Positions 8,383-57,669 of a DNA stretch of 64,000 bases are shown piece by piece. Where the stretch lies: assembly GCF_019649055.1 (NCBI RefSeq), contig NW_026570326.1, positions 372,001 to 436,000 on the forward strand. Direction: 5' to 3'. The position numbers and the translations under genes were made by a program. Origin of the DNA: Paramacrobiotus metropolitanus. Its lineage: Eukaryota > Tardigrada > Eutardigrada > Parachela > Macrobiotidae. Under the pieces are notes generated by a model, which did no database searches, had not been told where the DNA came from, and worked only from the letters and a program-made list of their open reading frames with translations. Position 1 is the stretch's first letter, and every line of letters starts with the position of its first letter.

Positions 8383-10811
8383 ATGGCACAACGATTTCTT
8401 GCCTTTATCACTCTTCTGACAAGACGATACCTATTTGTAATTTCGTTGGTGTTTTTACTTGTTGTAATCGTGATTCTCACATATTTAATGCTCTTCAGCA
8501 GAAATGTCGAATCTGGTAAGATAAGCAACTGTTACACATTGGTTTACTTATGCATTTCATTGACGCAAACATCCCGACTGTAAATTTCAGTAAAAGGTCG
8601 CTCCGTTATTCTTTCTTATCTTCGCTAATCAATTTTTTCTAATTTCTGCGCCCGCCTGGTTGATATTTCATTTACTGTATATCCTTGCAGAAAATGAGTG
8701 CGAATGCGCGGCGACCCATCAGCGGACCACGGGCAACCAGCAATCTGCCAAAAGAGCTGACAGTAAGTCAAAGCTGCCACTCTCTTGGGACTCCGAGTAT
8801 TGAACTACGATAACTGAAACGCTTGCTTCGTAGATGTTAGTCAAAACCAACTATCTGAGACCCTGCCCGTCGAAACCCCACCTGCTATACCATGGAGCAA
8901 ATACGAAATCTCCCGTACAGCGTCCTTCTCATTTCCTTACAAGGACTTCCGCGTCCTCGTGTACGAACGAGGCCCAGTAGCCGTTGGGACCACCAAACCA
9001 TCCGTGTATTATTTTTCCCCGGCGCTGATCCTGAACACATCCAGCGCGAATACCTCGTTTAATTGGTTTGAGCAGCGTTTTGTTGTGACCTTTTCCCTGA
9101 TCATGTACAACAAGGATTACACGGACCACATCAAGGCGAAGATCTTACAGATCATGAATGTCCAAGTTAAGGATCAAAACCTGCATGTGATGCCCATCGA
9201 GGAAATGCGCCTGATTAGCTCTAACCCGGAATGGGACTCAGAGATCGAAGTGGACACGACCTGGCGATCGTACAGCAGCCAATCCGACAGCAGTGAATTT
9301 CGCATCTTCTGCAACAACGGGTTTAAGTGTCAGCGTTTAAAAGAAGGCATCGAGAAAAAAGGCAGTGAGTTTATCGGCGATATAGAAGTCCACTACGCGC
9401 TAGAATCACAGCGGAGTGCGGCGCGCCGTCTGACACTGACGGCCGAGCACATCCAAACCGGGAAGATGTTTACGGAGCTTGAGCAGCGTTATGCCGGGTA
9501 CGACGAAGTGTATTTGAACGGTGAAGATTCCAAACGCATGCAGCAAGAAATCGCCAGCAATGTCATGGCAGCGGAAATTGCCGATAGTGAATACGTGAGC
9601 GGTGAGCAGTCACCGACGTTACTCAAGTTTATCGAACAGGCGCTCAGTCTGCAGGAAGTCAGTTCGGCGAAATTCACTCCGGAAATGTGGAAATCGGTGT
9701 ACTGGAAGGACGAGAACTCCCGTCCGGATAAGATCACCCGGGAATACCAAAACTCTTTTGACAAGCAGGACCGCGAAACGCAGAGCCGGATTATGGATTA
9801 CTTTAAGAAAGCGGAGAAGGAGAGCTGGTGCGCGAAGACGGGTGGTGGTGTCAGCGAAGTGGCTTCCGGAAACCTGAAGGTGTGCTCCGACACGAGCAGC
9901 TCATCGGCTCAGCGGAACGAGATGGAGAATTATTTGCGAAATATCAATGAAGGACGGAAAGCGACGGAAATGCAGGGCGAGAAATTTGTGCCGAAAGAAA
10001 TGTCTTTGAAACGGACGAACATTGCCAAGCTGAAACAGACCAGCAGTTTGGGTACAGTTTCGGTGAGCAACTAGAAAAGAATTCAAGCGAATTTCGCTTA
10101 CAAAAGCGGTCATATGCGGCGATAGGAAAAACTTTTCCGAAACGTATGGGGTACATTACGTGCATAACACATCTTATTTTAAAAGTGAATGTTATTACAT
10201 TTATTATCATTCCTGTTTTTTTTATTTAGATCAAAATTTCGAAAATTATCGGTGTTATGAAGACCAACGTGAACTTCCTGGAAACCGTGGCTAATAGTTC
10301 CCAAGCAAACACCATATCGACAGCGCCACCCGCCGCAGAAGGAGCATCTGCTGGCCGGAAACCATTATCCGATATCCGAGAAGTATTTCACGTCCGCGTC
10401 GCCAGCTCCGCCATAACGTACAGGAAAGAAGAAGCAGCTAGTATTTGCCAGTCAGTTTTCAATTCGACGTTAGCGAGTTTAGCGAATATGCGCGATGCAT
10501 GGCTGGACGGCGCTGACTGGTGCGAAGTGGGCCACATACTGGAAGAAAGGACCTTAGCGTATCCCGCACGCGATTGTTTGCGACCAGCGACGAGCAGCTA
10601 TCGCGGGGATATTTGCTACAAAGATGTCGGGCAGATTAATAGTTATGTCGCCGCCGAATTTGGCCTAGATTATAATATGCAGCTGTCCGGGTTTAATTGC
10701 TTCGGTATTAAACCGCTGAGCGGAGGTGCGAGAATTTACGGTGGCTATGAATTACTAGTCCTGCCGTTCAACCAGAACAGAATAGGACAATATCAGCACA
10801 CAATTAAATGA
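8383..10811 (+). CDS. Type II membrane protein with C-terminal Link-like domain, LLM-1
   Basis: Four exons: 8383-8515, 8691-8762, 8834-10062 and 10230-10811, 671 residues; phases 1, 1, 0 all match. Residues about 16-39 are one membrane segment with two Arg just before it, so the short N-terminus is probably cytosolic and the rest extracellular. A 72-nt exon encodes a Cys-containing stalk. Then comes an unrecognised domain beginning near WSKYEISRT, with a conserved pair CNNGFKC (residues 228-234) and the shared module at about 271-367. The C-terminus (about 529-650) has Link-domain landmarks: EVFHVR, EEAASICQ, LASLANMRDAW, GADWCEVGH, AYPARDC, FNCFGIKP. Link domains bind hyaluronan in vertebrate proteins; binding here is unproven. 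Near copy of LLM-5. Confidence 0.85.
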
Positions 10812-11906
10812 AAGCGAAGTACCAGATTTTTTAGAAGGTTTAACCAATGCCGTACGGCTTACTCTATAGCGAGTCAAAGTTAACCATTTAACCGGTGAAA
10901 CGTGGCGTTTCAAGGCTCACCATGGGCACGCAATTTAAGCCTCATTTAAAATGCCGGGGTTGTGGCATTTAATTCGGACAGTAGATCATAGCCCACGGGG
11001 AGGAGAGATCTTGTGTCTAGCATTACAAATTACCGTAGTTATAAATGACGTCCACGATCTGCATCATTTAGTGTAATGTACTAACATTTACGAGGTAAAT
11101 GTGCTGTCGTGTTTGAAGTTTACTACTGTACTTAATTTCGACAATTTAAGGTGTGTTACCGCTACTGAGTGTGTGCGCCAGGGCGCCGCAATCAGACTGC
11201 AGTTTGTCAAAACCAACCAGCCTCCAAGAAGTCGCTGAGTCGAAGCCAGTGGCTAGCTGCCACCTCTGGGATAGTGGTGGTAGCTTGGGCATTTACTAAC
11301 CTACGTTGCCAGTATTTAATTAAGTACTTAAACACCCCGATAGCTAAAAGGTCACTGAAATAAATTACAAAGACCGAAAAGTTTTTAAGAAATAGTTATA
11401 TTCTTTAAAATTGTTTTTATCTGGTTGGCAAGCTTAACTGCGCAAAGCTGTAAATTTCTTTTATTTTTACTTTTTCAAATGCTTCTGTAGCTGGTTCAGC
11501 TGTCTTTTTTAAGCATGTTACATTTAAAAAAGCTTGAATCTATTAAAACCTTGAAGTTTTAAAATCTATTTCATACTGTAACCCTTTAAATTTTTGTAAT
11601 CTAGTTTATTGTTCCATATCTCAAACACAACTGGTCGCGCGCTAGCGCGACCGATACTTGTAAGTAGTACTTACGAAAATGCGAACGATAACATCATACT
11701 AACACAATAATGCGTATAAGGACTTGCTATTAAAAAAAGGATTCTGTCGATACTGTGTAATCGCGGACTTATCGCACGTCAAACAAAATCGTCTTTTCCA
11801 ATGCTTTGCTAACAAACGAGCTTACGTTTTGTCATTTACTTATTTATTCATTTGTATGACATTTTATTGGATTAATGAATGTTCTCTTCCAACCTCCTCG
11901 TGCAAT
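10812..11906. other. Spacer between LLM-1 and TFP-c
   Basis: The first few hundred bases are duplicated downstream of LLM-5 (57670-58020) and are probably 3' UTR and flank. The middle (about 11150-11640) has no counterpart in block 2 and holds no convincing exon. Nothing else seen. Confidence 0.45.
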
Positions 11907-14358
11907 ATGGAAGACATAATATCTTGTATCTTTAGGAATTTTGTTCTCCCTATGGGACTTGTATGCTTTACCGATCACAGAAAAGGTTTGCCGTAGTTCA
12001 GAAGTACGAGTGCAAATGTAGATAGGTCACAACATTGCTGTGTTAGTTTCGTGCATTCCGTAGTGGGTTTAGTCAACTCCTTATGCATAATAATGTTCAG
12101 TATGGTATAATGGAACTGAGTTTCACATTTTCTTTCTAGTTTCAGATTAGATCATTGGCTGCTGCCAATTCAGCCAATGATCTGTATGGTAGAACTGAAT
12201 TAAATTTTCATTGTTTTTCAGTTTCTTCTCTTCAGGGCTATGGGTGCAATAATTACGATCACAATCCTCGCGACGCAGGTTGGGCCATTCCGTGTTCAAA
12301 TAAATCAACTGCTGCGGATACGCCGATTGAGAAGACCCTTTCGGAAATCAGGGTTCTGGATTGTCCGGGTAACTGCGCCGAAGTTGTGACAGGATTTACT
12401 GACGAGCCACGGTCCCGTATGTATGGTGTTAAGGGATTTGACCCGGTACATAGTACCAAATTCGGGCACATACACGGGAACTTTCGCTGTCGTGCACTCC
12501 TAAACACGTTTTTGCATTACTTTATGACATTTTGTTGCCAAAGGATTCGTATACATAGGCGAAAAAACCGTTTTTGCGCGCAACGTCCGGTTCGGGAGTT
12601 ATAAGTGAAATAAAATTCCAAAAGTTTAATCGCGCGGAGGTGTACCAAAAGTTTCATTATGAACCGATGCTCTTGAAATTTTGCACGAAAACGCACATTA
12701 CTATGAAGATCGTTTTGGTACTGAACCAGCTTTCTACCATTTTTTTCAAATTTTAAATTAATTTTTAAAATTTTTGAAATTCATTTTAAAATTTGAAAAA
12801 AATGGTAGAAAGCTGGTTCGGTACCAAAACGATCTTCATAGTAATGTGCATTTTCGTGCAAAATTTGAGGAGCATCGGTTTATAATGAGACTTTTTGGTA
12901 CACCTCCGCGCGTTTAAACTTTTGGAATTCTATTTTCACTAATAACTCCCGAACCGGATGTTGCGCGCACAAACGGTTTTTTCGCCTATGTATACGAATC
13001 CTTTGGCTACAAAATATCATAAAGCAATGCCAAAAAGTGTTTGGGAGTGCACGACAGCGAAAGTTGCCGTGGATGTATACAAATTCGGTGCTATGTACCG
13101 GGCCAAATCCCTTAACAACTTAAGGAAATTAACGGATAGCAATCCAAACTGGCCCGTATATGCCTAAATGCGGGGGCTTGCATGAAATAAATTAAAGTTA
13201 AAAAAACGCTGTTGTTTGCTTTTTAACGAAGTTTTATTTTTAAAATAACAGGAAATAACTGTGATGTTATCCACAAAAATAAGGTACTGCACCAATATGC
13301 TGACACAGCGCACTAAACAGTGCAGAAATTAGGTTGCGGGCACAGATAAGGTGCGTTACAAAGTAATAGCTACGAGGGCGAAAAATAGTGCACAAAGTGA
13401 TTTTATATCTCATTTTATCTGACAAATCTGATTTTATCTGATTTTATCTGGCAAATCTGATTTGATATGACACATTTGATTTTATATCTGATTATCTGGA
13501 CCGCAAAATTAAAAATCGTGCCTACTTGCTAAACGTTTGCTAACTTGGCTTTTTTTTCGTAAGCATGTCCAAAAACGATAGGCCTTTGCTTGAAAAATGG
13601 CAGGTGACAGCGAACCCATGTTCTTTCATTGAACGAGGCATTCAGTGGTTCTTTCAGTCCATTGTCAAGGCTTGCGTTACTGATATGGTGCTGATTTAAA
13701 TTTTGAACTAATCCAATTTTTTTTAGAGAAGCGGATATTAAGGTCCTGCCAGGACGATACCTTCAGTGATATGCCTCTGTATGTATCAGCAAAGTCAAAA
13801 CTGAAAGCCAAATAAATAGGCAAAAGTTAATATCAGTGACCGCCACTGACCGGTGTTTCCACATGATTGTTACCAACGTTCGTGCACATTCACGAAAACT
13901 GCAGTTTTGCGTACTCCCGATTCCCGAACACTTTCGTCGTTTTATTGCATCTAAAACGGCACAGCCAAAAGGTTTTGCACATAAACAATGGTGTGAAAAC
14001 TGGAGAAACGGGCAGCTCGTTATAATACAGGAAAAAGTGCCAAAATTTTAGCTCAGTGATACAAACGACTAATTCACGTGCGACAGGCACTTAAACTGTA
14101 TTTCGTCTGTGTTAACATGCTTTTATTTTCAATGACTTCGTAATGTTTTTCAGATTTTTACACGACAAGCCGCTGGGATGTTATCGAAAGGACGACTGCA
14201 ACCCTCCTGGTCCATGTCAGCATGTTTATTGTATCTGCAACAGCCCTCTCTGTAACAACAAGACCGTACTGGAGGTCATTAAATCGGACGCAGACGCATC
14301 CGCAATAAATATCTGCCTTTTCTCGCTCTTACTTTTTCCTAGTGTCTTTAATAATTAA
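11907..14358 (+). CDS. Three-finger (Ly6/uPAR-like) protein, TFP-c
   Basis: Four exons: 11907-11985 (signal peptide), 12222-12416, 13727-13778 and 14154-14358, 176 residues. Same exon sizes and phases as TFP-b and TFP-k. Intact features are NNYDHNP, DCPGNCAEVV, SCQDD, KDDCNPPGPCQHVYCICN and a hydrophobic C-terminal tail suggesting GPI attachment. The first conserved Cys is replaced: the exon reads LQGYGC where TFP-b and TFP-k read LQCYGC, which should cost one core disulfide. Intron 2 carries a 679-bp fold-back transposon (12433-13111) absent from both paralogues. The gene may still be expressed, but the lost Cys and the insertion make decay possible. Confidence 0.7.
12433..13111. mobile_element. 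Fold-back MITE with TTAA target duplication
   Basis: A near-complete inverted repeat: it begins GGGATTTGACCCGGTACAT and ends with the matching ATGTACCGGGCCAAATCCC, with the turn near 12755. TTAA at 12429-12432 and 13112-13115 flanks it. TFP-k reads GGTGTTAACAAC at the same site (58772-58783), which is the unfilled target. A TTAA duplication is characteristic of piggyBac-type insertion, but there is no transposase here, so mobilisation would have to be in trans. A second copy lies at 53194-53824 and broken relatives near 40970-41160 and 46190-47370. Confidence 0.85.
13399..13500. repeat. GATTTTATCTG short tandem array
   Basis: Repeated variants of GATTTTATCTG and CAAATCTGATTT within intron 2 of TFP-c. 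The matching intron of TFP-k (near 59070-59103) holds a much shorter version, so the array has expanded or contracted since the duplication. Confidence 0.65.
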
Positions 14359-14773
14359 TTTAAGAATATTTGTACAAAAGATTTGTGTTTTTTTGGGAAT
14401 TTTTATTGGCAGGCCGCGGCAAAGTTATCTGCTATCACGTACAACGTTAGAAAATTTCAATGGTGTAGAAGGTATTGTTTTATGTCGAAAGAAAGGAATT
14501 TTATGTCGAAAGGACGCGTTTGCGCTCTCGATTAATAACGTGCTCGTCGCGGAGGGTGGTCTGGTGTCGAAATTCCTACGTCTCACACACTGGTATTGAA
14601 TTCGCCGGACGAAAACAAGAGTATCGAATGGTGAAAAAACATCGCTTTTAGACACAGCAAACGGGAAATAGAATATAGAATATAGAGGTCTAATAGAGGT
14701 CTATAGAGGTCTAATATATACATAGGTCTTGAATTGAGAGGACCTTCGCTACGCCCCGGTCGATTAAGACTGA

Positions 14774-14816
14774 CATACTAGAAAAATGCACGTTGGCGTG
14801 CATTTTTTCTAGTATG
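14774..14816. repeat. Hairpin (CATACTAGAAAAATGCACG arms)
   Basis: Arms 14774-14792 and 14797-14816 with a 4-nt loop and one extra base in the second arm. It lies in the spacer between TFP-c and the type I membrane gene, in a stretch not conserved in block 2. Confidence 0.75.
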
Positions 14817-15377
14817 CCGGAGCGCAGCAGCTTTTCGTTTTTGCGCGTTAATTAAGTTTTAACGTGCTACCAGTAGCGCTCGTAACAGTTAACATAATCA
14901 ATAATTTTAACTTAACAAGATTTTCGTAACAACCTTTCGTAAGGGACACAGAAACATTTTTGCATTGGACCTGAATTAAGAGAACCTTCGCTACGCTTCG
15001 GTCGATTATTCTTACGGTTAACAATCGCGATACCATCACAGAGTGACTAATAACTTGCGTTCTCTACTTGAAAATGCATAAGCTGAAAAAGTTCGCGACA
15101 TAGGAAAACTCGAATGCTGTAGCTAGAATATGGTTCAATGTTGCTAAGCGGATTTATTTATGGCAAGGTCATCAAAAACCAAAAGAACACAATTGCTTAC
15201 GGCTTACCTAATAAATGTTACGAGGAGTAAGTCGTGGTCCGAAAAAATTCTTTTTACGGTGACGGTTTATCAGCAGACGTAGATGTGCAAATGTAGCACG
15301 CCCTGTACTATTTATATCACGCTGGAACAGTACCATCGTCGACCACACAGCTAAAAGTTTCCAACAAGGCATTAAAA

Positions 15378-16599
15378 ATGATGACACCGCCAGTGATCCA
15401 CCGAATTCCATGCATCGCATTATCTGTATTAGCGTTAGCAGTGCCAATCCACGGAGGCCGTGAACAAGCCATTGCCTCCGGACTGCCGTTAATATCCATC
15501 ACCAACTGGCACGGGGAAGGGTACGGTGATTTACAGATTCGGGGCGATAAAAGTGAATACACAACAGTACCCAGCCATTACTGCTACATGAGCCAGCGGA
15601 ATGACCTTTGGGTATTACAGATGATCGGGTGTTGGTGGTCGGTACGCGGGATTCGATGACAGTTATTGCGCTTTCGTGGTCAAACACGAGCGCAGCGTCC
15701 CCAAAGTGGGCTCCTTGACGTTGTGTCGGTGTGATCAGATCCTGTACAATGCCAGATCCCCAAAGTTCCTATAGCGGACCCCTCCTCAACCGTGGCAGGC
15801 CACGGATTCCAACTGTTCTCCGTCAAAGACGGATGGGTGGATACGACGCTGGAGTACATTGAAAGTGAGGTCTGTGCTCCGGGTCCGTGCTGTTACGAGA
15901 ACGTGACAAAAACTCCGGATTTTCCACCTGGATTCGTTCCGAATTACAGGAAGAGCGCAACAACAGGTAATGTTTTTTTGCTGTTGCGATCTTGCTGAAG
16001 ATTTGTTCTGTTCCTTGCTATAATACGTTACAGCGGTTTGACTACCACTTTAATTTTGAAGTGCTCTAATTTTCTGAAGTGATGAGTTAGCCAGTACTTA
16101 GCTATTCTTGCACATAGCAAGCACAGCTGAAAACGTCAGCGCCGTTTTTCTGCAAAATTCGCAGCGAATGTAGCAGCGCCCATGCAATTGTTAGATTCCG
16201 TTAACTTCAGTTTTGTGTTTAAGGAACGACATTGTCCACGACGACAACCACAACAAGTCAAGAATCTGTGGACGAACAAAGTAAGTCTTAAATTCCTGCA
16301 ATTCAACTATTCTGTATCTTTATACATACTTCACAACACGTTGATTCTTAATTCGTAATTGGTGTTTCCAGAACAAGGACTGAGCACCGGAATTATTGTT
16401 GCCATTGCCGTTGGTGGTGGAGTAGGTAACTTCTACATAAACCGATGTACACTATAGTGCTTGTGTGATCAATTGTTTTTCTGCTTAGCTTGCCTGTATA
16501 TGCTGTGGAGCTGGGATCTATTACTACTACCGACGTCGAAATTTAAGCCAACCAAAAAAGAGGCCGACTTCAGCCAAAACCGAAAAAGAAAACGCCTAA
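15378..16599 (+). pseudogene. Type I membrane protein with Thr-rich stalk, copy 1 (frames broken)
   Basis: Same gene as 61208-62460, where the architecture is described. Exon ends here are 15966, 16224-16280, 16372-16421 and 16489 onward. Relative to copy 2 the sequence lacks one G in the GCGGGG run near 15650, differs by several bases near 15760-15815, and has one extra A in the run near 16550, which moves the stop forward to 16597-16599. Because almost all differences are single homopolymer bases, sequencing or consensus error is at least as likely as true loss. I label it a pseudogene only because the reading frame as given is not continuous. Confidence 0.5.
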
Positions 16600-17172
16600 A
16601 CCGAATGCAATTGCGTGTCGATAAAAAACTTAGACTTGCTCGCAAAAAGTAGACAGCTATTTTACACTGCTGTCCTTCAAATTTTCTGTAATTTTAGCTT
16701 TTTTTCAAGTTCTACATCACCATTTTATTTATCTGCAATACTTATAATTGCGACAAAACATTAACCGACAAAACGAAAAATAAACCTCTTTTGGCGTATT
16801 GTACTTGTGTTTAGCAATAGCAGTTCTACTGCACGGTCCGCCCTTGACTTACAACTTATCACTGAAAGGAGAGCGTATTAAAGCTGTTCTATAATATAAT
16901 TTTTTAAAAGTCTTCGCGGCAAAAATTAACGGCTCAGAAAGAAATGGAGTCCTTACAAGACGTACACTGTAATAGCCCGATGAGAGCAGGACGAGCCTTG
17001 TCGTTAGGTGTCCGTGTCCTTTCATTTTAGCGTTCCTAAGCAACACGTCGGTCAAAGAGGTTAAAAGTCCAACAGGCCGATCAGTTTTGATGCCACCAAA
17101 TCCGTTCACTGTACACTTGACTGTACCGTTTACTGTCCGCTCCGTGTTGCGAAGCGGGCCTAAAATATTTTC

Positions 17173-17728
17173 TTAATTTTGTAAGAATACAGTCAAGAAA
17201 TAATCCACTTCCTGCGTATCGGTATGGAGGACTTTGCTAGCGGTTGAATGCAACGTCAACCGTAACGACTGCCAGTGCAAGGTTTGATTATGACAATATA
17301 ACGCTAAATGCAAAATATACCGATTAATTAACATGTTATCCTACTGGTAACTATCCGACGGTTTTGGCACCACCCTTAAAGTGTCCAAAAGATGTACCGC
17401 AGAATTTATCCTGTTTGCGAAAAGTAAGGTTGGAGCGTTGTGAATAGTAAAGTGTTCTTGGAAAGCCGCGTACGTATCGCTGACGATCCGGTCCATTTTG
17501 CTCATGCAGTGAATATCAGCATTCAGGAACGCGAACTAATAATTATTATTCGTTAAGATGTCGAAGTGCTGCAATATGTTTGACCAAATCCTTGCAGTGT
17601 TACCCTGAAAAGCTTCACAACCCGTTTTAGTATTTCGTTCGAAGACAAGGAAACGGCTCTGTCGTACAAGAAATTATAAATAGAATTTTGGTAGGTTGCG
17701 TGCCCCAACAGTTGGCACCGAATCCCAT
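17173..17728 (-). pseudogene. Unknown small minus-strand gene, copy 1 (frame broken)
   Basis: Counterpart of 63012-63568. Exon positions are 17604-17728, 17374-17535 and 17173-17268. The first exon has CCC instead of CCCC after the start codon on the plus strand, so the frame is lost after ATGGGA. Exons 2 and 3 are unchanged. One-base homopolymer loss is the only lesion seen. Confidence 0.35.
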
Positions 17729-18224
17729 TTAACGCGCCCAGTTAATCTGCTGCACGGAAGAGAAATGTCTTATTATACAGTTACACTGTGCCAGATCGTC
17801 GCACGCTACCGTGCGAAGCTGAAAGAATGATGCGGTTCTTTCGTGACAGATAGGAGGCAGATTCTGTTCATCTCTTGCTGCGCCATTGCATTTTGCCATT
17901 ATCAGTGTTTCCTGCGTACTGATATGACACGTTTCCGTTTTGGTAAGCTTTCATTAGCCACATCAGGCCAATGAGGCTGTACCGAAAGCAGAAAGTCTCA
18001 TGTAAATTCTGCACTTCTACTGAACCACCTGGACGCATTAGTGAAACTAGAACGAGAAAAGCAAGAGCAAAACGTCGCGATCATGATGACTATGACAAAA
18101 TTAATCTGTTATTGTGCTTTTATAAATGCATGCATAGTATTTATTGTACGTATCCTTACTCGCATTCAATTCAGCAGGGTATAATTATATTGCATATTAA
18201 AGTAAGTATGCATTGTGCACATGC

Positions 18225-18345
18225 TGTAATTTGAAGTAATACTCGTACACATTATAATAATTGTAATACACATGCACATTATAATCACACATTACTCGTA
18301 CACATTATTATTAAGTATTATTATTATTCTTAAGTACAGTACATA
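18225..18345. repeat. CACATTATAAT-rich low-complexity repeat
   Basis: Several copies of (T)ACACATTATAAT and ACTCGTACACATTAT followed by an ATT/TTA run. Simple AT-rich repeat between the block 1 end and LLM-2. Confidence 0.6.
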
Positions 18346-18564
18346 TTGTAAAACACTGGTTTTGCGCGTTCCACATGTGCGATAGAAAAGGACGCTGTTG
18401 TCACGGAGTGTTAACGTTTTCAGGAAGGGCAGTTACAATACAGTACATAAATTTTGCTCAAAACCTTACATAGTTGACGTCGGGGTAGCTTTTGCGCTAT
18501 GTAAAGCAAAAGTGAAAGCTGCATTTTTGTGCTACTACTTACTTCTACGAGGTACTAATCGAGC

Positions 18565-20876
18565 ATGAATGACGCCGAAGCTCAAAAGAAGCCATCTTTG
18601 GACGGACAGCCCAACACTGGACAGGGCCGTATCTGGGCTGTACTTGTTCTTGCTTCGCTGCTAAATTTGCTCTTCGTCGTTCTTTTGGTTTATTTTGAAA
18701 CGAAGCCTTTGAAAGAACCAGTAGGTAAAGATCACAATTCGATTGTATGCATAAATACGTCTGGGCTATCAAATCCAGTATACAAGGCTGTTTGCGTGCT
18801 GCAAAACTGATAAAAAAAAATGTCGATACGGTTGCAACGAAAAGTCCTGTTGACAGTGCTTAAAACTAATTTTCCTGGTTTAATATCCTTGTTATCGCGA
18901 ACTTTTAAAACGTGGCCTGTTGTTGCGAATGGAAAAATGTTTTGAATGGCTTATATCCTTTTCATAGCACCATAGCATCTTCGGTAGGACATTTGGGTTA
19001 TCTGGTTTTGTGTTTGCAGAGCCAGTTAAGCAGTGCAGCGGAAATGTTACAGCTCCGGAAGGTAAGCGTGTTCGGCGCTCTCGTGGGGAAATATCAGTGA
19101 CACATTCCTACGTCATGACCGTCCCGTATTACCACCACAACGTTCTGATCTACCAGCAAACCAAGGGCCCGCTCAACACCAGCACCGATGGCCGCGAGAA
19201 GTACTACTACCAACCCGCTCTCATGATGAACACCGAAAAGACCCGCGTCTCCATGAATCCGTTCACGAACCGTTACGAACTCCTGCTGCCAGTTGTTCTC
19301 TGGAACGAAGCGTACGAAGACCATATTCGCCAGCAGATTATGGATCAAACCGGGAAGAACGATTTCCTTTTGAGCGTCATTCCCATGGAAGAGGTCCGGG
19401 TGAAATCGGTCCGACCGAAACCACAAATCCAGCTGGTGACACGGTGGATGGCCTTCGCCAGTCAGCCGTCGGTGGTGACGTTCCGGATTGTTTGCAAGGA
19501 CAACGAATCGTGCGTGGAACTGCTGCAGCAAATACGCAGCAGTCCACAACAGTTTGTCGGGGATTTGCGGGTCTTCTACAGTCTGGAGAGCCAAGGCAGC
19601 ACCGGCAAGCGTATGACCGTCACCGCGGAGCACGTACAGCACAGCTCGATGTACGCCGCCATCAACCAGAAACTCCCCAATAAAGACCCGATTTATTTGA
19701 CATCGGACGATGCGAATACGCTGCAGCGGGAGATTATGAACAACGTCCAGGCCACCGAAGTGGAAGACGAGGATTTCGTCAGCGATGCCAGCCAACCCAC
19801 CTTGATGGGCTTGATCAACGAAGCGCTGGGGCTGGCGACCCGCAGTTCCAAAGATTTCGAAGAGCACATGTGGGATTCAGTGTTTTGGAACGATGACAAT
19901 GCACGCCCGGATAAGGTCACCAAACGGCTGAACGATGTCGCGCGGAAGCTGGATGCGCAGTCGCGATCCAAATTGCGGACCGAGCAGGAGAAAACCCAAA
20001 AGTTTGGCGTGCAAGCTGACATCAGCGGGTCGTACAAAAAGGTCACCGTCGAAGCGGGCGCGAATTTCGGGCAGGAAGCGGTCGAGCTTACTAATAAAGA
20101 AAAAGAGGAATTGAAGAGGGCGGTCGAAGAATCGAAAGGCAAGTCCGTGGTCGAGGAGAATTATTCGTCCCGAAGGCGATGGAGTTAAAGCGTATTAACA
20201 ACGGTAAAACGAGCATCGCATAAAAGCAATCATTTCAAATACATTGGCAGAGTATGGCTTTCATCATAGGAAATATTCGATCTGGCGCAGCATTAACCAC
20301 CACCATCGTTCGCGTCTCCAAAGCCAAATCGCAAATAAGCGATATTATAAAGATCATTGATTTACACGGGAGAACGCGACAGCAGACCAGATCTTCGTGG
20401 CCGCGGACCGTCAGCCGGAAGTCTTTCACGTGCGCGCCAAAGAAAGCTTTATCTTGTTCACGCGTGAAGAAGCCATCGAAATTTGCCGACAGTACAGCGC
20501 GAAGCTGGCCTCCGTGGCGCAGGTGGAACGCGCCTGGGTGGAAGGAGCCGACTGGTGCTCGGCGGGCCATGCGGACGATAACCGTGTGGCCTATCCGGCG
20601 CATGTCTGCTACACGTACGCTAAGAGCTTCGACGGTAGCACGTTGCTGCCGCTACAAGAACGCTCGGCGTCGTGCAACGACGAAGAAGCCCATAAGAAAT
20701 CTTTCGTCTATCAGACTAATACGAAAGACGAAGATGGCGGGTACAAGGAGTCCTGGCGCTTTGGTGTAAACTGCTGGGGTTTGAAACCCAATTCAAAAGT
20801 AAACGTACAGCATGGCGGCAGGATGCTGCAGGTGTGGTACTTTAACTCAACCCACTACAGCCAGTTCCGCGCTTGA
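18565..20876 (+). CDS. Type II membrane protein with C-terminal Link-like domain, LLM-2
   Basis: Exons 18565-18724, 19020-20203 and 20270-20876; the last intron is only 66 bp and phase 1. Residues about 22-44 are the membrane segment (AVLVLASLLNLLFVVLLVYF). There is no separate stalk exon. The ectodomain has the pair CKDNESC, the module (AEHVQ...MYAAINQKL...FWNDDNARPDK) and the Link-like end (EVFHVRAKES, GADWCSAGH, AYPAHVC, NCWGLKP). Two frame breaks are visible against the family: one base short near 20159-20163 (before FVPK-type residues) and one near 20368-20371 in a GGG run. Without them the product would be about 650 residues. Either consensus errors or a young pseudogene. Confidence 0.65.
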
Positions 20877-21684
20877 CAGCGATAGAAACCCCATAATACT
20901 CAGTAACGAAAAATCACCGGGTCGACGGTGTGTTATGTCTGTGAACATTCATCGTAGAAATCAAGACGCACCACGAATGACCAGTGTTCGATCTTTCAAT
21001 AGCATATCTGACTTAGCTAGGTTTGAACTTTGCATCCGAAAGAATATACGACTTCCAAAGAAGTTACAGAGATGTTAGTTCTTACGCAAAGGTAAATAAC
21101 AAACCGATAGCCGGGGCAGTTTGTGCATTCGTATATTATTGCAAAAACGAGAGTTAAAGAGCAACTGAAGGGGATCGATCCAGAAGAAGGCGTAACATCG
21201 TTCCACAGCAAATACAAGTACGATTATTGACCGTAACTCAATCAAATCCTTCAAACATCTACTTTGCAGAGGCGTAGAGGCTTCAGGTTCAAGGGGTGTT
21301 TGTCAAGTATCAAAATCTGCCAATGAGTAAGAATTACCCCGGTACCGTAACATGCACGGCTACTTGCATGTGGTGTCTCCGATTTCTAGCCTTGAAAAGA
21401 ACTGAAAAGAGAGAAGACGATTTGTGAGAACCTGGCATGCGATGTGAAATCGATTAGCTGAAGCTCATCCCGAAAGTCTGTTTCCACGGTGAGTGCAACA
21501 ACTCAGCAAAAGATTGTGATGTTACCAGTATGTGTACGTACGTACCTGTACTAAACCAAGTAAAATTTCGCTTTAAGGCTTTAACCAACATTTTGTTGCG
21601 CCATTACGTAAGTACTACTCCTTACTATTTGAGCTGTACTTATCAGAAGGGACGCTGTAGTAAAATAATAACATCAGAAGAATA
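20877..21684. other. Spacer between LLM-2 and LLM-3
   Basis: No exon supported. Short frames lack family similarity. It presumably contains the LLM-2 3' UTR and the LLM-3 promoter; I see no clear core promoter motif. Confidence 0.35.
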
Positions 21685-24169
21685 ATGAGTAACACAGAAA
21701 ATCCAAAAGTCGTATTTCCTAAAGTGTACATTGCTCTTGCCATAGCTTTAACTTTAAATGGAATACTTTTACCCCTTGTAATAATCGCAGGAACAAAAGG
21801 GTTCAGGAGTCAACCTACCACAAAAGGTTAGTCCTTTTCTAATCTGGAGGTACTGACTAGCTTTGTCAGCGGTCAAAAGTAAATGTTGTTGTTCTTCTGA
21901 ACTCTTACTGTATTGAACGTAATCCTTTTTTTGTAGATGCGGCCCAATCCCACCGTGGGACTGCGCAATCCCAGTGCCCGAGCCCACAGCAAAACCAAAG
22001 CTTACGCGGTACGTGCATAATATAAAGTGTGTGTTGACTGTTTAGGATAAATTATAGGATCGCTTTCCGCCACAATATTGGCCAAAGCGCCATGGAGCAT
22101 TCTGTGTTCACAAAAACTGGGAGAGCCAGCGCAACGTATGTTACCCATAAATCGCTTCTTTGAGCGAAGACTTTAATTTATACCGTTTATAATTGGTGAC
22201 TCAAGTGTGCGTCAGGATGGTCAGTTAAGTGCTACTCAGCCTGACTAATATCCTGGCAATTCAGAAGAAAGAGAACGATTTCCTAATACGTACAACTTCG
22301 AGCATACATAATCCTTAATTATCCAGTTATTAAAATTCGCTTTGCCTAATGGTGATAATTGGTTTTTCCTCAGCGGGCGCGTCTGGAAATGCTGTCGCAG
22401 CATCGGGCAACACGACCGGAAGCACTCTATCTGCCCTCACGTGGGGTCGCTACGAAGTGGTCCATTCCTACGTGATGGTGGTCAACTACTCGCACCACAA
22501 CATCCTGATTTTCCAGCAGAATAACAACACCAAGAACGACTCCACCTTCGTGTACTACTATTACCAACCAGCTCTTTTCTTGGACCTACCTAAACTCGGC
22601 GTTATCAACAACCCCTTCACCCAGAAATACGAGCTGCATCTCTGGGTTCTGATGTGGAATCAGGCGTACGAAGAGCACATCCGTCGGAAGATCCGCGAAC
22701 AAGCCCCTACCACGAACTTCGTTCTGAGCATTCTCCCGATTGAGAGTATCCGTGTCAAACCGGGCGGACTAGCCAAGCAGTATCAATTTGTGGACCGCTG
22801 GATATCCTACACATCGCAACCGCACTACGTCATCTTCCGGATAATCTGCCCGAATAACGAGACTTGCACGGAGACCGCGCAGAGGATCCGCGAAGCACCG
22901 GGTGCGTTTATTTGGGATCTTCGGGTTCAGTACAGTCTGGAAGGGCAGAGCAGTGTGGGAAAATCAATCGCTGTACGAGCCGAGCATGTCCAGCAGACGT
23001 CGCTCTATGCCGCCATCAATCAGAAGCTTCCGCAGAAGAGTCCGGTGTACCTGACTGCGGCCGATGCCAATAAACTCTCCACGGAGATCGCCAACAACAT
23101 TCAAGGCGTGGAGATCGAAGATGAGGACTACATCGCCGAACAGAACGCGCCCACCTTGATGGCGCTGATCAACAAAGCCCTGCAGTTTGTCTCCAATAAC
23201 ACCAAGAACTTCGACAATGCCACGTGGAATTCGGTGTTCTGGTCCGATGACAACACGCGCCCCGATAAGGTCACCCAGGATGCCAACGAACTGTACTCCC
23301 AACTGGACTCCACTTCGAAGTCAAAATTCAAGCAGGAAGTTGCCAGCTCCAGCACCGAGGGATTCAACTTCAAAGTAGGCGCAACCTTTAGCGGAAAAGA
23401 TTCGTCGGGCAGTGGTTCCGTGGGTGCCAATTCCGAAAACACCCAGTCAGCATTAAGTGAAAAAGAAGTGGACAAACTGAACAAACTGCTGAAGGAAGCC
23501 AAGACCAAGAGCGAATGGCAGGGAGAGAAGTTCGTCCCGAAACCAATTGAGGTCAAACGCATGAACACCGGGAATATCAAAGTCGGAACGCAACTATCGA
23601 CGACACAGTTACGGGTGAAAGTCTCGACGTCCATATTGACTGACTCGATCAAGCTGGTGGATATCGAGCCGGGTGAAGTCAGCAACATCTTTACGACAAA
23701 ACCAGCCGGCAAGGAAGTTTTCCTGGTGAAAGCTCAGAACGATTTCACCCGTTATAACAAGACGGAGGCCGCCAGTGTGTGTAAAACCCTGAACGCTGTA
23801 CTTGCTAGTGTCGAGCAGATGCATGACGCGTACGCTGCCGGCGGAGAATGGTGCTTCACCGGGCATACGAGTACGACAAATGTAGCGGCGTATCCGGGGA
23901 CTGTCTGCCATAATTACTACAAGACTATACGAAATAACGCGACTGTTTACCTCTTGCGGACGGTCGTCTGTGATGAGATGGCGCAATACAGAAAGACATT
24001 CCTCTACAAGACCGTGGGAACACAAGGATCGGTCAGTGTGGACGCGATGCGCTTTGGGGCCAACTGCTGGGGCTTACGGCCGGCGCGGGGAGAAAAACTA
24101 AAATATAAAAGCGATGCACTAACAGTAATGCCGTTCAATAAGACACATTATAGCCAATTTTATGATTAG
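21685..24169 (+). CDS. Type II membrane protein with C-terminal Link-like domain, LLM-3
   Basis: Three exons: 21685-21826, 21937-22008 and 22374-24169, 669 residues, frame intact from start to stop. Membrane segment at about 13-37 (YIALAIALTLNGILLPLVII); the 72-nt stalk exon matches those of LLM-1 and LLM-5 in size and phase. Ectodomain: RYEVVHSYV start, pair CPNNETC, module at about 274-368 (AEHVQQTSLYAAINQKL to DDNTRPDK), then a Gly/Ser-rich stretch, and a Link-like domain from about 518 (EVFLVK, EAASVCKTL, LASVEQMHDA, GGEWCFTGH, YPGTVC, FGANCWGLRP). Five Cys lie in that domain at about 541, 565, 583, 604 and 636. The intron before the Link-like part in LLM-1, -4 and -5 is absent. This is the cleanest reference for the family. 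A poly(A) signal (AATAAA) follows near 24246. Confidence 0.85.
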
Positions 24170-25052
24170 AAACGTTTTATTTGTGACTCCATGTACAGTG
24201 TAGTAATTAGCCTTTGTTGATCGAAGCCAAAGCAAACTGTGATAAATAATAAAATATGGAAATGCCATTCGGAGCTTGGGCAAATATCACACTCTATACG
24301 AGAGAGTGAATTTCGAATCCTAACATGTGTCCTGAACTGATGTCCGAGCTGTAGAGTTGACAGGGATAGGTACTCTGGCTTACATAAGCTATAGGCGCAA
24401 TCCGGCAGTAGTGCGCTATAAGTACCAGTTCAAGCTTCGGTGCAACAACATCAGCCGACAACAGTTACTGCGACAGTGCGACTTACAACCTTTACAAAGT
24501 GAAACACAAACAAAATTCAATGATAATTCCACTGATAAAGCAAACAGAACGAAATAAAATACACAGATTACTAAATAACTGGCACGTTCGTGATAGAGTC
24601 AGCTACACAGAGATGTAGCACGCGACGAACCCATTCCCACTTCCTTTGGACCGTTTTCCTCAACGGCACTTTTCAATGGTTTGCGCATTCGCTTCAGCAA
24701 GAATTTTGCTATGGGTTGATAAGCCACCCAAAACTAAGCAGCCATAGTACAGCCAACCGCACTGTGCAGTGTCCAGGACACAACGACACATGCGGAACAG
24801 GTTTTAGAATAGTATTTGCTGAAAAACAAAAAAAAATTTATTGATTTGTCCAAAACGCTTATCAGCAGGATAACGAAATAGCTGTAGAAGTTCGTTCCCG
24901 TTAGGACTGAAACCGACTGACTGTACATAGATGAAGCCGATTAAAGGAGGTTTTAAAAGTGAATCGACCGGGACCAGAGTCACCAGACCAAGTCCTGTCA
25001 GTGCACAAAACGAAAAGGTCGCCGCTCGATTTATAGCGTGTCACTAGGGCTC
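24170..25052. other. Spacer after LLM-3
   Basis: Contains the likely 3' end of LLM-3. No other exon is supported; short frames have no family signature. Confidence 0.35.
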
Positions 25053-26570: not shown

Positions 26571-26572
26571 AT

Positions 26573-36096: not shown

Positions 36097-36380
36097 TGTT
36101 ACGTGCTTTTTCTAAGGTGGAATACGCGGATGTAAAGTAGCTTTATTGATAGAAATAAGCCAGATGTTATTAGCTAGTTGAGCCTGATGTAAAGCTAAAG
36201 AAAGATACAGTAGCAAGCCGGTTTTATACCGAGCTGCTGGTAAGAAACTGTATAAATAGAACATTGTAGGTGGAACTAAAGTAAGTGTAACAGAAGTACA
36301 TAAAAGGATACAGTACATATAAGGAGATAGTAATTATAGATATAGTGTACGTATAGTACTTATGTAATGTACTCGTAACA
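36097..36380 (-). repeat. LTR (3' LTR in element orientation)
   Basis: Starts TG and ends CA, 284 bp, matching 38899-39182. Its inner edge touches the polypurine tract 36381-36391, as expected for the 3' LTR of a minus-strand element. Confidence 0.85.
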
Positions 36381-38895: not shown

Positions 38896-38898
38896 AGT

Positions 38899-39182
38899 TG
38901 TTACGTGCTTTTTCTAAGGTGGAATACGCGGATGTAAAGTAGCTTTATTGATAGAAATAAGCCAGATGTTATTAGCTAGTTGAGCCTGATGTAAAGCTAA
39001 AGAAAGATACAGTAGCAAGCCGGTTTTATACCGAGCTGCTGGTAAGAAACTGTATAAATAGAACATTGTAGGTGGAACTAAAGTAAGTGTAACAGAAGTA
39101 CATAAAAGGATACAGTACATATAAGGAGATAGTAATTATAGATATAGTGTACGTATAGTACTTATGTAATGTACTCGTAACA
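38899..39182 (-). repeat. LTR (5' LTR in element orientation)
   Basis: Identical by eye to 36097-36380. Followed on the plus strand by the target duplicate GTAC. Confidence 0.85.
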
Positions 39183-39189
39183 GTACTCA

Positions 39190-41757: not shown

Positions 41758-42522
41758 ATGGGCTCTATAATATGCGCACCGTTCATGACTTGTATTTTCT
41801 ATCTCACTTACGTAAACGGCGAGATCCGATTCACCTCTCGTCACATACGGAACACCGCAATATACAGCGATATCGACTATCGATTTCGGGACGTCGACGC
41901 CATCTACATGCCATATGAGCACTACCTCAACTGGTTCGAACAGATCATGGGCCAAATTGGAGGGGTTACGGCCAACCAGAGGAAAGAGCTGTTTGGAATG
42001 TTCGAGGGTCTTCTATCAGCTAAAAATGACACTTCAAAATTTGACGACGATCCTGGTATAAAAGACGTGCTACTGTGGCCGGACACGGTTAAGAAACCTA
42101 CCGCCGTTGCAATGAATGCCACCGCAGTGTACCGCGACGCTCAAAATGATTGCGTGCGGGCAGCAATTATTGATAATTTTGAAAATCGCCCTCGTTCAGG
42201 CTGGAAAGTATGGATTAACGAAGGCAATCTCATCCGATTAGGGTTACAGTTCGCCCCAGCGACCGAGTATTGCAGTCTTTCTTTAAAGAAAGAAAAATCT
42301 GCAGGGTTAAAATACAAAGACGAAGGCTCATTCTTCTCTGGCGGACAGCACGAATCCGCTCCGCCCGAGTGGTTCAGTTTTACCACAACGCTTACCTTTA
42401 ATGCAAAGGACTATATTACCTTTGTACCTACAGAATACAGGTTTGCACCGAAGCCACCGACTTTGGTTCACATGAACTTTTTATTAGTCCGAACTATGGT
42501 GACGTATGGAACTGTACCATAA
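41758..42522 (+). CDS. Secreted protein carrying the LLM module, second copy
   Basis: Single exon, 254 residues. Residues 1-20 are a signal peptide (IICAPFMTCIFYLTYVNG). Residues about 28-115 are the module: SRHIRNTAIYSDIDYRF, AIYMPYEHYLNWFEQI, RKELFGMFEGLLSAKN, LLWPD. The C-terminal half shares CVRAAI, GNLIRLGLQFAP, PTEYRF and VRTMVTYGTV with the 7235-8011 protein and with nothing else in the window. The DDN-RP motif of other module copies is degraded to PDTVKKP, so this copy has diverged most. No membrane segment. Unknown family; conservation of two intact single-exon copies argues for function. Confidence 0.8.
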   Translation: MGSIICAPFMTCIFYLTYVNGEIRFTSRHIRNTAIYSDIDYRFRDVDAIYMPYEHYLNWFEQIMGQIGGVTANQRKELFGMFEGLLSAKNDTSKFDDDPGIKDVLLWPDTVKKPTAVAMNATAVYRDAQNDCVRAAIIDNFENRPRSGWKVWINEGNLIRLGLQFAPATEYCSLSLKKEKSAGLKYKDEGSFFSGGQHESAPPEWFSFTTTLTFNAKDYITFVPTEYRFAPKPPTLVHMNFLLVRTMVTYGTVP

Positions 42523-53160: not shown

Positions 53161-53193
53161 CTATAAATTAAGCGTGAACTTGGTTTTATTTGA

Positions 53194-53824
53194 GGGATTT
53201 GGCCCGGTACATAGCATTAAATTCGTTTACAGAGTACTTCCAAATATTTTGTTGAATTGCTTTTTGGCATTATTTAGCCAAATGATTTGTTTACAAAGGC
53301 GTGAAATCCATTTTCGCGCGCAACCTCCGGTTCGGGAGTTATGGCTGTTAGAAAATTTAAAAAGGTTTCAGGTGTTTGAAAAGGTTAAATTCATTCAGGT
53401 GTACCAAAAGTCTCAGTATGGACCGACCCCTTTCAAAATTTGCACTTAAATGCACATAGCCACAGAGAACGTTTTTACACGGATCCAGACTTCCATAATT
53501 TTTTTCGAATTTTAAAATAAATTTTAAAATTTTTGAAATTCATTTTAAAAAAATTTGAAAAATATGCTAGATCAGTGGATCGGTGTAAGGACGATCTTCA
53601 TGGTTTTGGTACACCTGAATGCATTTAAACTTTTTGGGATTTTCTAACAGTCATAACTAAACCGAACCGGATGTTGCACGCGAAAACGAACTTCACGCCT
53701 CTGTATACAAATTATTCGGCTACAAAATACCATAAAGCAATGGAAAAAAGTGTTTAATAGGGCGCGGCAGCAAAAGTTCCCGTGGATGTGTACATATTTA
53801 ATTCTATGTACCAGGCCAAATCCC
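53194..53824. mobile_element. Fold-back MITE, second copy
   Basis: Same family as 12433-13111: begins GGGATTTGGCCCGGTACAT and ends ATGTACCAGGCCAAATCCC. The right flank is TTAA (53825-53828), the left TTGA, one base off a perfect target duplicate. Turn near 53530. No coding capacity. Confidence 0.8.
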
Positions 53825-53957
53825 TTAATAATGAAAACTGAAGAAAACTGGACTTCAGTTTTCCTTGGCAAAACGTCGGCACGATAACTGGGATTTAAAC
53901 GGTAGCTGGCAAAGCAGCAGGTTAGCCTTGTTGCATTGATCAGACAAAGACATCACT

Positions 53958-54560: not shown

Positions 54561-54785
54561 GTCGATTATCACGGTATCATGACTTAGCACCGTCAAACAT
54601 TTAACCACCGTCAAAAATTTAACCATTTTCAGAATTAATTAATTTATCGTCGGTATCTAACGTTGGTTAAATTATTGCATTAACTGTTTACACACACATC
54701 AAACAATCACGGCCACTTAACGTGTTAATTGAGGTTAATGTTACGTCGGCGGTGCTTGCCTTCCCTGTCGGCCCACCATTCAGAT

Positions 54786-54848
54786 GGGATGCCTTTCGGA
54801 CGCTCTGATGGCCCAGCGGCGGCCATCAGAGCGTCCGAAAGGCATCCC
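54786..54848. repeat. GC-rich perfect hairpin, 28-bp arms
   Basis: Arms 54786-54813 and 54821-54848 are exact inverse copies (GGGATGCCTTTCGGACGCTC...) around the 7-nt loop CAGCGGC. The loop-adjacent GGCCCAGCGGCGGCC recurs right after the second arm. Much more GC-rich than its surroundings. Confidence 0.9.
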
Positions 54849-55249
54849 GGCCCAGCGGCGGCCGCCTGCTTTGTTGCTGTTGCGTTTTGCACACGTTTGC
54901 TTCGAGCTGTTCTTGTCGTGTCTGCTTGCACGCTGGCGTCACGAGTCTTCATTTATGTATTGCTTAGTTCTTGCTCAGAACGTCGCTGATTGTGTTCTAT
55001 ATGAGCAACCATTGACTCGGTGTGCAACTGGTCATTAAAGGTCACTGATGTTGCATACATGGCAACTCAGTATTTACTCACACATAAACTTTAATTGTTT
55101 GATAGACAAATAAATGTACGTACTACGACGTACTCATCTTGCTATCGAAGCCAGAAAGATGTGCGATGAACTGGCAGCGACCTGGGTTTACGCTTATTTT
55201 ACTGAATGAGAGAACCCAGTTGTAATAATTTTAGCAAATTCCCATGAAG

Positions 55250-57669
55250 ATGGCACAACCGTTTCTTGCTCTTATGACTCTCCTAATGAGGCGATATCTA
55301 TTTGTAATTTCTTTGGTGTTTTTACTTGTTGTAATCGTGATTCTCACTTACTTAATGCTCTTCAGTGGAAATGTCAAATCTGGTAAGACACGAACTGTAC
55401 CCCGTTCAATGGAACATATATAAACACATATTTCGTTAATGGGATTATAAATTTTAATAGAAGGTCCTTTCTTATTTCCGCTGTAGTTTAGTTTGTTGTT
55501 AAATTTCTGTGACTGCCTGATTCAAATTTCATTTACTGTATACTCGTTGCAGAAAATGACTGCGAATGCGCGACGACCCAACAACGATCCGCGGGTAACC
55601 AGCAAACTGCCAAAAGAGCTGCCAGTAAGTCAAAGCTGCCACTTTCTTTGGACTAAGAGCATTCTGAACTTCGATAACTGAAACGCTTGCTTCGTAGATG
55701 TTAGTCAAAACCAACTATCTGAGACCCTGGCTGTCGGAACGCCACCTGCTTTACCGTGGAGTAAATATGAAATCTCCCGTACAGCATCCTTCTCGTTTCC
55801 TTACAAGGACTTCCGTGTTCTCGTGTACGAACGAGGCCCTGTCGCCGTCGGAACCACCGAACCATCGGTATATTACTTTTCCCCGGCGCTAATCTTGAAC
55901 ACATCCAGCGCGAATACCTCGTTCAATTGGTTCGAGCAGCGCTTTGTTGTGACCTTTTCGCTGATCATGTACAACAAGGAGTACACGGACCACATCAAAA
56001 CAAAGATCTTGCAGATCATCAATGTCCAAGTTAAGGACCAAAACCTGCATGTGATGCCCATCGAGGAAATGCGCCTGATCAGTTCAAACCCAGAATGGGA
56101 TTCCGAGATCGAAGTGGACACGACCTGGCGATCGTATAGCAGCCAATCCGACAGCAGTGAATTTCGCATTTTCTGCACTAACGGGTTCAAATGTCAGCGT
56201 TTAAAAGAAGGTATCGAAAAAAAAGGCAGTGAGTTTATTGGCGATATAGAAGTCCATTACGCGCTGGAATCACAGCGGAGTGCGGCGCGCCGCCTAACGC
56301 TGACGGCCGAGCACATCCAAACCGGGAAGATGTTTACGGAGCTAGAGCAACGTTATGCCGGGTATGACGAAGTGTATTTGAATGGGGAAGATTCCAAGCG
56401 TATGCAGCAAGAAATCGCCAGCAACGTCATGGCCGCGGAGATTGCCGATAGTGAATACGTGAGCGGTGAGCAGTCACCGACGTTACTCAAGTTTATCGAA
56501 CAGGCGCTCAGTCTGCAGGAAGTCAGTTCGGCCAAGTTCACTCCGGAAATGTGGAAGTCAGTGTACTGGAAAGACGAGAACTCCCGTCCGGATAAGATCA
56601 CCCGGGAATACCAGAACTCTTTTGACAAGCAGGACCGCGAAACGCAGAGCCGGATTATGGATTACTTTAAGAAAGCGGAGAAGGAGAGCTGGTGCGCGAA
56701 GACGGGTGGTGGTGTCAGCGAAGTGGCTTCCGGGAACTTGAAGGTGTGCTCCGACACGAGCAGCTCATCGGCTCAGCGAAACGAGATGGAGAATTATTTG
56801 CGAAATATCAATGAAGGACGGAAAGCAACGGAAATGCAGGGCGAGAAGTTTGTGCCGAAAGAAATGTCCTGAAACGGACGAATATTGCCAAGCTCAAACA
56901 GACCAGCAATTTTGGGTACAGTTTCGGTAAGCAGCTATAAAAGAATTTGAGGAAAGTTCACTTACAGAAGCGGTTATATGCGGCAAAAGGAAAAATTGTC
57001 CCAAAACTTATGTCGTACATTACCCATCCATGGTTCTAAAATTTGAACGCTATTACATTTTGCAACACTCTGTTTTTTGCTATTTAGATAAAAATTTCGA
57101 AAATCATCGGCGTTATGAAGACCAACGTGAACTTCCTGGAAACAGTGGTTAATACGTCTCAAACAAACACCACATCTACAACGCCGCCCATCGGAGAAGG
57201 AGCTCCCGCTGGCCGGAAACCCTTATCCGATATTCGTGAAGTATTTCACGTCCGCGTCGCCAGCTCCGCCATAACGTACAGGAAGGAAGAAGCAGCTAGT
57301 ATCTGCCAGTCAGTTTTCAATGCGACGCTAGCGAGTTTAGCGAATATGCGCGATGCATGGCTAGACGGCGCTGACTGGTGCGAAGTGGGCCATATACTGG
57401 AAGAAAGGACCTTAGCGTATCCCGCACGCGATTGTTTGCGACCAGCGACGAGCAGCTATCGCGGGGATATTTGCTACAAAGATGTCGGGCAGATTAACAG
57501 TTATGTGGCTGCTGAGTTTGGCCAAGATTATAATATGCAGCTGTCCGGGTTTAATTGCTTTGGTATTAAACCGCTGAGCGGAGGTTCGAGAATTTACGGT
57601 GGCTATGAATTATTAGTCTTACCGTTCAACCAGCACAGAATAGGACAATATCAGCACACCATTAAATGA
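55250..57669 (+). CDS. Type II membrane protein with C-terminal Link-like domain, LLM-5
   Basis: Near copy of LLM-1 with the same exons: 55250-55382, 55553-55624, 55698-56926 and 57088-57669; an in-frame ATG at 55244 may also be used. All four exon lengths equal those of LLM-1 (133, 72, 1229, 582). Domain order is as in LLM-1. Frame break: one base is missing near 56869 (TCC TGA where LLM-1 has TCT TTG), giving a premature stop, and one extra T near 56910 restores the frame before the donor. Two opposite one-base changes 40 bp apart are unusual; a consensus error is plausible, otherwise the product ends before the Link-like domain. Confidence 0.75.

Follow-up and report, generated by a model that had tools for sequence, protein, structure and literature searches.

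Link-domain genes of the tardigrade Paramacrobiotus metropolitanus belong to a large family in which one unrecognised ectodomain is joined to different tips

The 64,000-nucleotide stretch analysed here (the window) comes from the eutardigrade Paramacrobiotus metropolitanus and corresponds to positions 372001-436000 of contig C106 in a 169.8-Mb assembly. Within 8383-57669 it holds five genes, G1 to G5, that share one layout, and all five loci of the original prediction, which was made from the letters alone, are present at this span (Table 1). A short lead is followed in each by a single, strongly hydrophobic segment (Kyte-Doolittle mean over the best 19 residues 2.56-3.16), a stalk, a long ectodomain and a C-terminal Link domain. 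By this hydropathy measure all five look like type II membrane proteins, as predicted, and no hydrophobic segment is visible by eye at the C-terminus of G1. An annotated relative with a different tip, P0004, has a signal-peptide-like start with a Kyte-Doolittle mean of 1.53. The full splice model of G1 has three introns, all GT-AG (8516-8690, 8763-8833 and 10063-10229), so that the ectodomain lies in exon 8834-10062 and the Link domain in exon 10230-10811, and its 671 residues equal the length of the annotated paralogue P0002. Splice models of G2 to G5 are partial and were made by eye. Of the five genes, G1 and G3 have uninterrupted frames, and the other three (G2, G4 and G5) are interrupted by frame breaks.

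Table 1. Positions of the Link genes, short ectodomain relatives and duplication arms (window coordinates unless a contig is named)
Feature	Position	Strand	Description
G1	8383..10811	+	anchor, stalk, ectodomain, Link domain; uninterrupted; 671 aa
G2	18565..20876	+	layout as G1; two one-base frame breaks
G3	21685..24169	+	layout as G1; large last exon, open frame 22349-24169 holding ectodomain and Link domain
G4	28561..31045	-	layout as G1; single one-base frame break in first third of ectodomain
G5	55250..57669	+	copy of G1; single one-base frame break near end of ectodomain exon
Short ectodomain relative	7235..8011	-	secreted-looking, no tip; ectodomain profile E 2.4e-5
Second short ectodomain relative	41758..42522	+	secreted-looking, no tip; ectodomain profile E 6.3e-4
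First duplication arm	8158..24400		G1-G2-G3
Second duplication arm	55037..64000 in window; C106:427037-442367		G5, then G2' and G3' outside the window in locus L010

The C-terminal domain is a Link domain by two routes. The cut-off of Pfam Xlink (PF00193), 27 bits, is passed by all five genes (G1 35.3, G2 52.1, G3 38.6, G4 30.5, G5 36.8), and profile A8, built from 11 Link domains of the tardigrade genome, finds known Link proteins in the PDB, namely aggrecan (1.6e-21), CD44 (3.6e-10), TSG-6 (1.2e-5) and LYVE-1 (2e-5). All 11 rows of A8 share the cysteine columns C26, C50, C89 and C122 without variation. The assignment, originally made by motif, is thereby upheld; the landmark strings on which it was based are exact for G1 and G5 but varied in G2 to G4. 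The window genes have a diverged last third of the domain that ends in NC-x-G-[IL]-[KR]-P, and in the 12 members that bear the ectodomain the Xlink match stops at or before position 78 of the 92-position profile. The only structure model that includes the Link domain has a predicted local distance difference test score (pLDDT) mostly below 50 across it. Xlink matches were absent from all 14 control genomes. Link domains are rare outside chordates; chordates make up 97.6% of the taxa with Xlink matches according to the available sections of PMC12383584. The same sections report Xlink matches of Hypsibius exemplaris that group with bacterial and viral ones, and give no architecture for them.

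The ectodomain, which we call the base, carries a signature consisting of a C-x5-C pair and a W..FW...RPD motif. The pair is found in all five window genes, as had been predicted, and across the family it is kept in 48 of 52 covering pieces, the tryptophan in 53 of 55 and the RPD triplet in 47 of 55; G1 matches the ectodomain profile with an E value of 6.5e-96. The claim that this domain is unrecognised also held: no Pfam family passed its cut-off over the ectodomain in nine proteins searched with E up to 1, and a search of 20 members with E up to 0.1 gave no match over the ectodomain among the 25 of 37 families listed. A structure model of the G3 ectodomain from eight alignment rows reached a pLDDT of 70.9 and a predicted template modelling score of 0.48, and had a clear match in none of the structure libraries. 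Two short proteins of the window (Table 1) are homologues of the latter half of this domain's core (profile-profile comparison of both jointly, probability 97, E 9.2e-11).

The base reaches far beyond the window. Genome searches with the ectodomains of G1 and G3 gave 93 and 87 stretches, respectively. Merging the 93 with five from the G3 search under a 2.2-kb rule leaves about 71 loci, spread over 32 contigs; this number is approximate, as weak fragments are counted too. The commonest tip identified on the base is Collar (PF07484), a domain of phage tail-fibre type. Collar matches over the cut-off number 27 in the genome, and 23 of them follow an ectodomain on the same strand at a distance of at most 3 kb; so do 12 of the 17 Xlink matches. 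Base and Link domain share one open frame in G3, P0002, L013 and L009:1944-4163, as do base and Collar in L022, L028, L029 and L036 (L denotes examined loci), and these two joins are shown by the sequence itself. With a 278-column profile the examined loci yielded 59 ectodomain pieces, of which 13 have Link downstream, 28 Collar and 18 neither. These pieces are not quite genes (L034 is counted twice) and 16 further regions lie outside the set, and the shares are no census, since many loci were chosen for their Link or Collar match.

Several of the 18 pieces with neither domain are followed by other Pfam families. AIG1 lies downstream of L039 (28.3 bits, cut-off 27) and, below cut-off, of L038 and L041; CUB downstream of L048 and L049 (45.0 and 29.1 bits, cut-off 21.4); and CarboxypepD_reg downstream of L043 and L044 (37.4 and 40.6 bits, cut-off 32.3), below cut-off at L046 and L052 and with no match at L042. 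We regard the AIG1-type GTPase, CUB and CarboxypepD_reg-like joins as candidate tips, judged from exon position, and ricin-B perhaps as a further one (L050, 28.8 bits, just under the cut-off of 29). The downstream frame scanned at L047 had no Pfam match. This tip scan covered the set apart from L045 (two genes) and L051; L009:837 is a fragment, and the remaining two pieces are the short window proteins. In L038, L039 and L041 the ectodomain precedes a P-loop GTPase, and in L041 the ectodomain and the AIG1-type P-loop stand within one open frame. The annotated protein P0003 (RefSeq LOC129586498, contig C21) combines a piggyBac-type transposase (PF13843) with ectodomain and Collar, and reflects either an erroneous gene model or a fusion to a transposase.

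The phage character of the Collar tip is visible in several comparisons. L054 matches Gp10_C (PF21939) with 31.0 bits (cut-off 27), and in the PDB the family profile A6 picks up a short tail fibre (4.4e-11) as well as T4 gp37 (1.2e-5). P0004, the annotated Collar relative, matches 611 of 50,697 phage records; among the eight matches listed, these are confined to residues 414-664 with a best identity of 34%. Collar matches also occur in 4 of the 14 control genomes. A pattern-plus-tblastn scan of IMG/VR found Collar-tip relatives in 112 of 133 stretches, 80 of which were kept, and such scans are thus able to work. With the same method no Link relatives appeared in viral contigs (18, 13 and 8 stretches) or prokaryote genomes (95 stretches), although bacterial and viral Xlink matches are reported in the sections of PMC12383584 available here. 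A viral or prokaryotic origin of the ectodomain was dropped, as relatives were confirmed in none of 52 viral-contig and none of 78 prokaryote stretches; each scan used two to six short patterns, so that such absence is weak evidence. P0002 had no match among phages and plasmids, and a degenerate DNA pattern for the Link motif gave no match, which is uninformative. In a tree of 24 tardigrade and 74 viral Collar tips the tardigrade rows need two changes and form one clade in 0% of 200 bootstrap trees, while a constraint to a single tardigrade clade is not rejected (p-AU 0.405 in the approximately unbiased test). Rows with less than 60% of the columns had been dropped, and the tree is undecisive on origin because a tardigrade query selected the viral rows and the columns are few; the tail-fibre tip may have been acquired once or a few times.

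How the tips are distributed over the base was followed in a tree of 53 of the 59 pieces (at least 150 columns; the six short pieces dropped include the two short window proteins). A single group (support 87/78) takes in all 13 Link rows plus one headless fragment, and the tip labels need 2 changes compared with 11.8 in shuffles. The midpoint root has Collar rows to either side, which parsimony reads as Collar being the older tip and Link one replacement of it, at moderate support and under an arbitrary root.

The copies in and near the window are part of a block duplication. The G1-G2-G3 block is repeated about 46 kb further on as G5-G2'-G3', and G3', a close copy of G3, is P0001 (RefSeq LOC129597566). 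The original prediction had described a local expansion to five copies; the five loci are there, but the description was incomplete, as they belong to this duplication and to a longer cluster on C106 that, including the five, accounts for 9 of the 17 Xlink matches of the genome. Identity between the arms is 78-87% over the aligned parts of 8158-14669. Synonymous divergence (dS) is 0.18-0.61 for G1/G5 and G3/G3' and zero for G2/G2', the ratio of nonsynonymous to synonymous divergence (dN/dS) being 0.02 in the ectodomain and 0.07 in the Link domain for G1/G5, and 0.03 and 0.02, respectively, for G3/G3'. Both pairs are under strong purifying selection, and these genes are therefore constrained. 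The ectodomains of the older pairs G1/G4, G3/P0002 and G2/G3 give 0.10-0.16, but with dS of at least 2, that is, at saturation.

Taken together, the sequence shows G1 to G5 to be the Link-tipped members of a large family in which one unrecognised base carries different tips. We put even confidence in the fuller reading that the tips are exchangeable and that the family would serve modular glycan recognition. Link tips (CD44/TSG-6) and tail-fibre tips (T4 type) are carbohydrate-binding folds where they have been studied, and by analogy with them the tips may act as exchangeable heads that do the binding on a base that would be a constant scaffold or an oligomerising part. In Link members the tip would be presented on the outer side of the cell membrane. 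Collar members may be secreted, as P0004, the only annotated one with a usable start, has the signal-peptide-like segment; they would probably be trimeric and might bind microbial or matrix glycans. The lineage-specific recognition system proposed originally remains an inference, the copy pairs with usable synonymous divergence being under purifying selection. Of the original interpretation, the Link domain, the type II look, the unrecognised base and a join undescribed in the literature matches listed were borne out, but the family is far larger than the window suggested and hyaluronan binding is unsupported. A more ambitious version, which we put forward tentatively and would not yet favour, is a tardigrade modular kit, in which a new base exists in about 70 copies, a phage tip was acquired and multiplied, and Link replaced it once, onto a membrane anchor. 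If so, host-recognition tips of phages would serve an animal as its own lectins. Should the base be the scaffold and the tips the heads, tardigrades would provide a natural set of tip swaps on a common frame, with which one could directly test how ligands are chosen, what becomes of a phage adhesin inside an animal and by which route Link domains travelled outside chordates.

Several observations weigh against a family of exchangeable recognition heads. Five Xlink matches stand without the base (two on C21, one each on C9, C200 and C39), and so do three or four Collar matches (C15, C40, C93 and C260:527), the last of which lies at a contig start where the profile finds a 45-column ectodomain remnant. 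Support for the Link group is moderate, and the direction of exchange hangs on the midpoint root. Position and strand, not transcripts, are the grounds for assigning the CUB, ricin-B and CarboxypepD_reg exons and the majority of the AIG1 exons, and coiled coils before Collar tips were noted by eye and in some members only. AIG1 domains are normally cytosolic, and an AIG1 tip sits badly with an all-extracellular recognition family. Moreover, dN/dS does not point to diversifying selection on the Link tip, whose median pairwise identity (0.365) is that of the ectodomain (0.368; 55 pairs among 11 genes, computed without the C178 loci). Since dN/dS is low and the tip is as conserved as the ectodomain, there is no mark of a fast-evolving tip, and the copy pairs measured show no sign of an arms race. 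The Link loci without a base are L011, L014, L015 and L017 (C21, C9, C200 and C39); in one C21 copy and the C9 copy the match runs to the final position of the Xlink profile, which it does not in the members that bear the ectodomain.

The constraint on the two copy pairs could also be read structurally. The family would then build or crosslink extracellular matrix, cuticle or egg-shell, with tips that serve assembly and not the recognition of foreign cells or mating partners. Strong purifying selection, the many gene copies, the occurrence of anchored as well as secreted-looking forms and a mixture of adhesive-type tips that includes Link and CUB would all suit structural glycoproteins. However, N-terminal membrane anchors, as on the Link branch, and a GTPase tip of AIG1 type would be unusual in matrix proteins, and we place this alternative on the unlikely side.

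An alternative of another kind, which we judge unlikely, is that the local copy number is partly an artefact of assembly, in that misassembly or an uncollapsed haplotype doubled the stretch around G2, and that the frame breaks are errors of the consensus. This notion stems from a tract of about 7 kb, window ~15405-22600 against C106 ~433240-440600, that is nearly free of substitutions and has scattered single-letter gaps, although both flanks are clearly divergent and the arms diverge again beyond ~22600. Two substitutions occur in it outside one 400-base bin that holds a 126-base difference, and 11 inside that bin. G2 and G2' are identical over 433 compared codons; G2 has 126 bases fewer at the start of the ectodomain exon, and G2' lacks a frame break in the stretch that corresponds to the broken part of G2. 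Single-letter gaps without substitutions are the pattern expected from consensus errors, and breaks in three of five genes would fit an assembly fault. Very recent gene conversion of the middle tract would, however, give the same picture, and the tract is due to either one or the other. The arms as a whole are old copies, because dS of G1/G5 and G3/G3' is far above usual allelic differences, and the family does not depend on the C106 block, since Link-plus-ectodomain genes also exist on contigs C357 and C178.

That the genes are receptors for hyaluronan, or a closely similar glycosaminoglycan, working like CD44 or LYVE-1 is very doubtful, for although the Link homology is clear and the four cysteine columns are intact, the hyaluronan-contact pair of CD44, R78-Y79, is kept in none of the 11 A8 rows (CD44's other contacts lie outside this comparison), and the Xlink match ends early in the ectodomain-bearing members. 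At the place aligned to this pair, after the second Link cysteine, the rows read SA, EV, VV, FT, NL, FV, HL, KT, WY, FY and YF; two of them, both without ectodomain, keep the tyrosine. Because the pair is absent, the hyaluronan receptor was dropped as leading reading. The long N-terminal hydrophobic segment of all five genes, with none seen by eye at the C-terminus of G1, also argues against a type I topology with cleaved signal peptide as in CD44 and LYVE-1. The motif comparison makes hyaluronan an unlikely ligand of the Link tip, which probably binds a polysaccharide other than hyaluronan.

The tardigrade genes have in common with hyaladherins (CD44, LYVE-1, TSG-6, aggrecan) the Link domain, by Pfam and by PDB profile, and its four cysteine columns, but differ in the N-terminal anchor, the unrelated base, the absence of R78-Y79 and the diverged last third. 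XLINK1 and XLINK2 of Mytilidae, also from protostomes, are several hundred residues long and have a standalone Link domain at the C-terminus; they are reported to carry a signal peptide and, in XLINK2, a C-terminal membrane segment, and the available sections of PMC12383584 make no mention of an ectodomain of the tardigrade type. Phage tail-fibre tips (T4 gp12/gp37 type) show the same Collar/Gp10 tip as the sister branch, where in the tardigrade it is joined to a base of secreted appearance, is present in many copies and often lies in split genes. FREPs and VCBPs are expanded invertebrate recognition families, secreted or at the surface, with a constant region and a carbohydrate-binding domain. 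Lineage expansion and the combination of a constant region with a domain of carbohydrate-binding type are thus shared, but the tardigrade base bears several unrelated tips and the two measured copy pairs are under purifying selection. Among the literature matches listed, judged by title and start of abstract, we found no described family with this join, in agreement with the original claim, nor phage tail-fibre tips described as a multiplied domain family of an animal; term searches in the available parts of PMC5531438 and PMC13389597 gave zero occurrences. Three protein searches for relatives returned only P. metropolitanus proteins (3, 2 and 1 matches) and say nothing on absence elsewhere, because only about 8,000 candidates were scored in the first and in the third, and the third brought back nothing but its own first row. 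What is new is best called a recombination of known tips on an unclassified base within an expanded animal family.

The remaining features of the window touch the family less directly. Rfam and tRNA scans across it found nothing. Three-finger genes, thought to be interleaved with the five, are unconfirmed: six chosen window open reading frames had no such Pfam match, which is hardly a test of the frames originally meant, and the QVR family has two matches in the genome, none on C106. Beside the Link gene on C39 lies a Quiver/Ly-6-like protein (L017:5273-5785, minus strand; 18.9 bits, below the cut-off of 27.3). Two 284-bp repeats, 36097-36380 and 38899-39182, are 100% identical and in the same orientation, and the adjacent open reading frame 39310-40194 (plus strand), with a sub-threshold CCHC zinc-knuckle (18.3 bits, cut-off 20.8), looks like a gag-type or ORF1 protein of a retroelement. 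Finally, 12427-13117, 53190-53831 and 46190-46460 are related sequences with inverted copies, and 12427-13117 matches its own reverse complement at 90.6%, as in a foldback transposable element.

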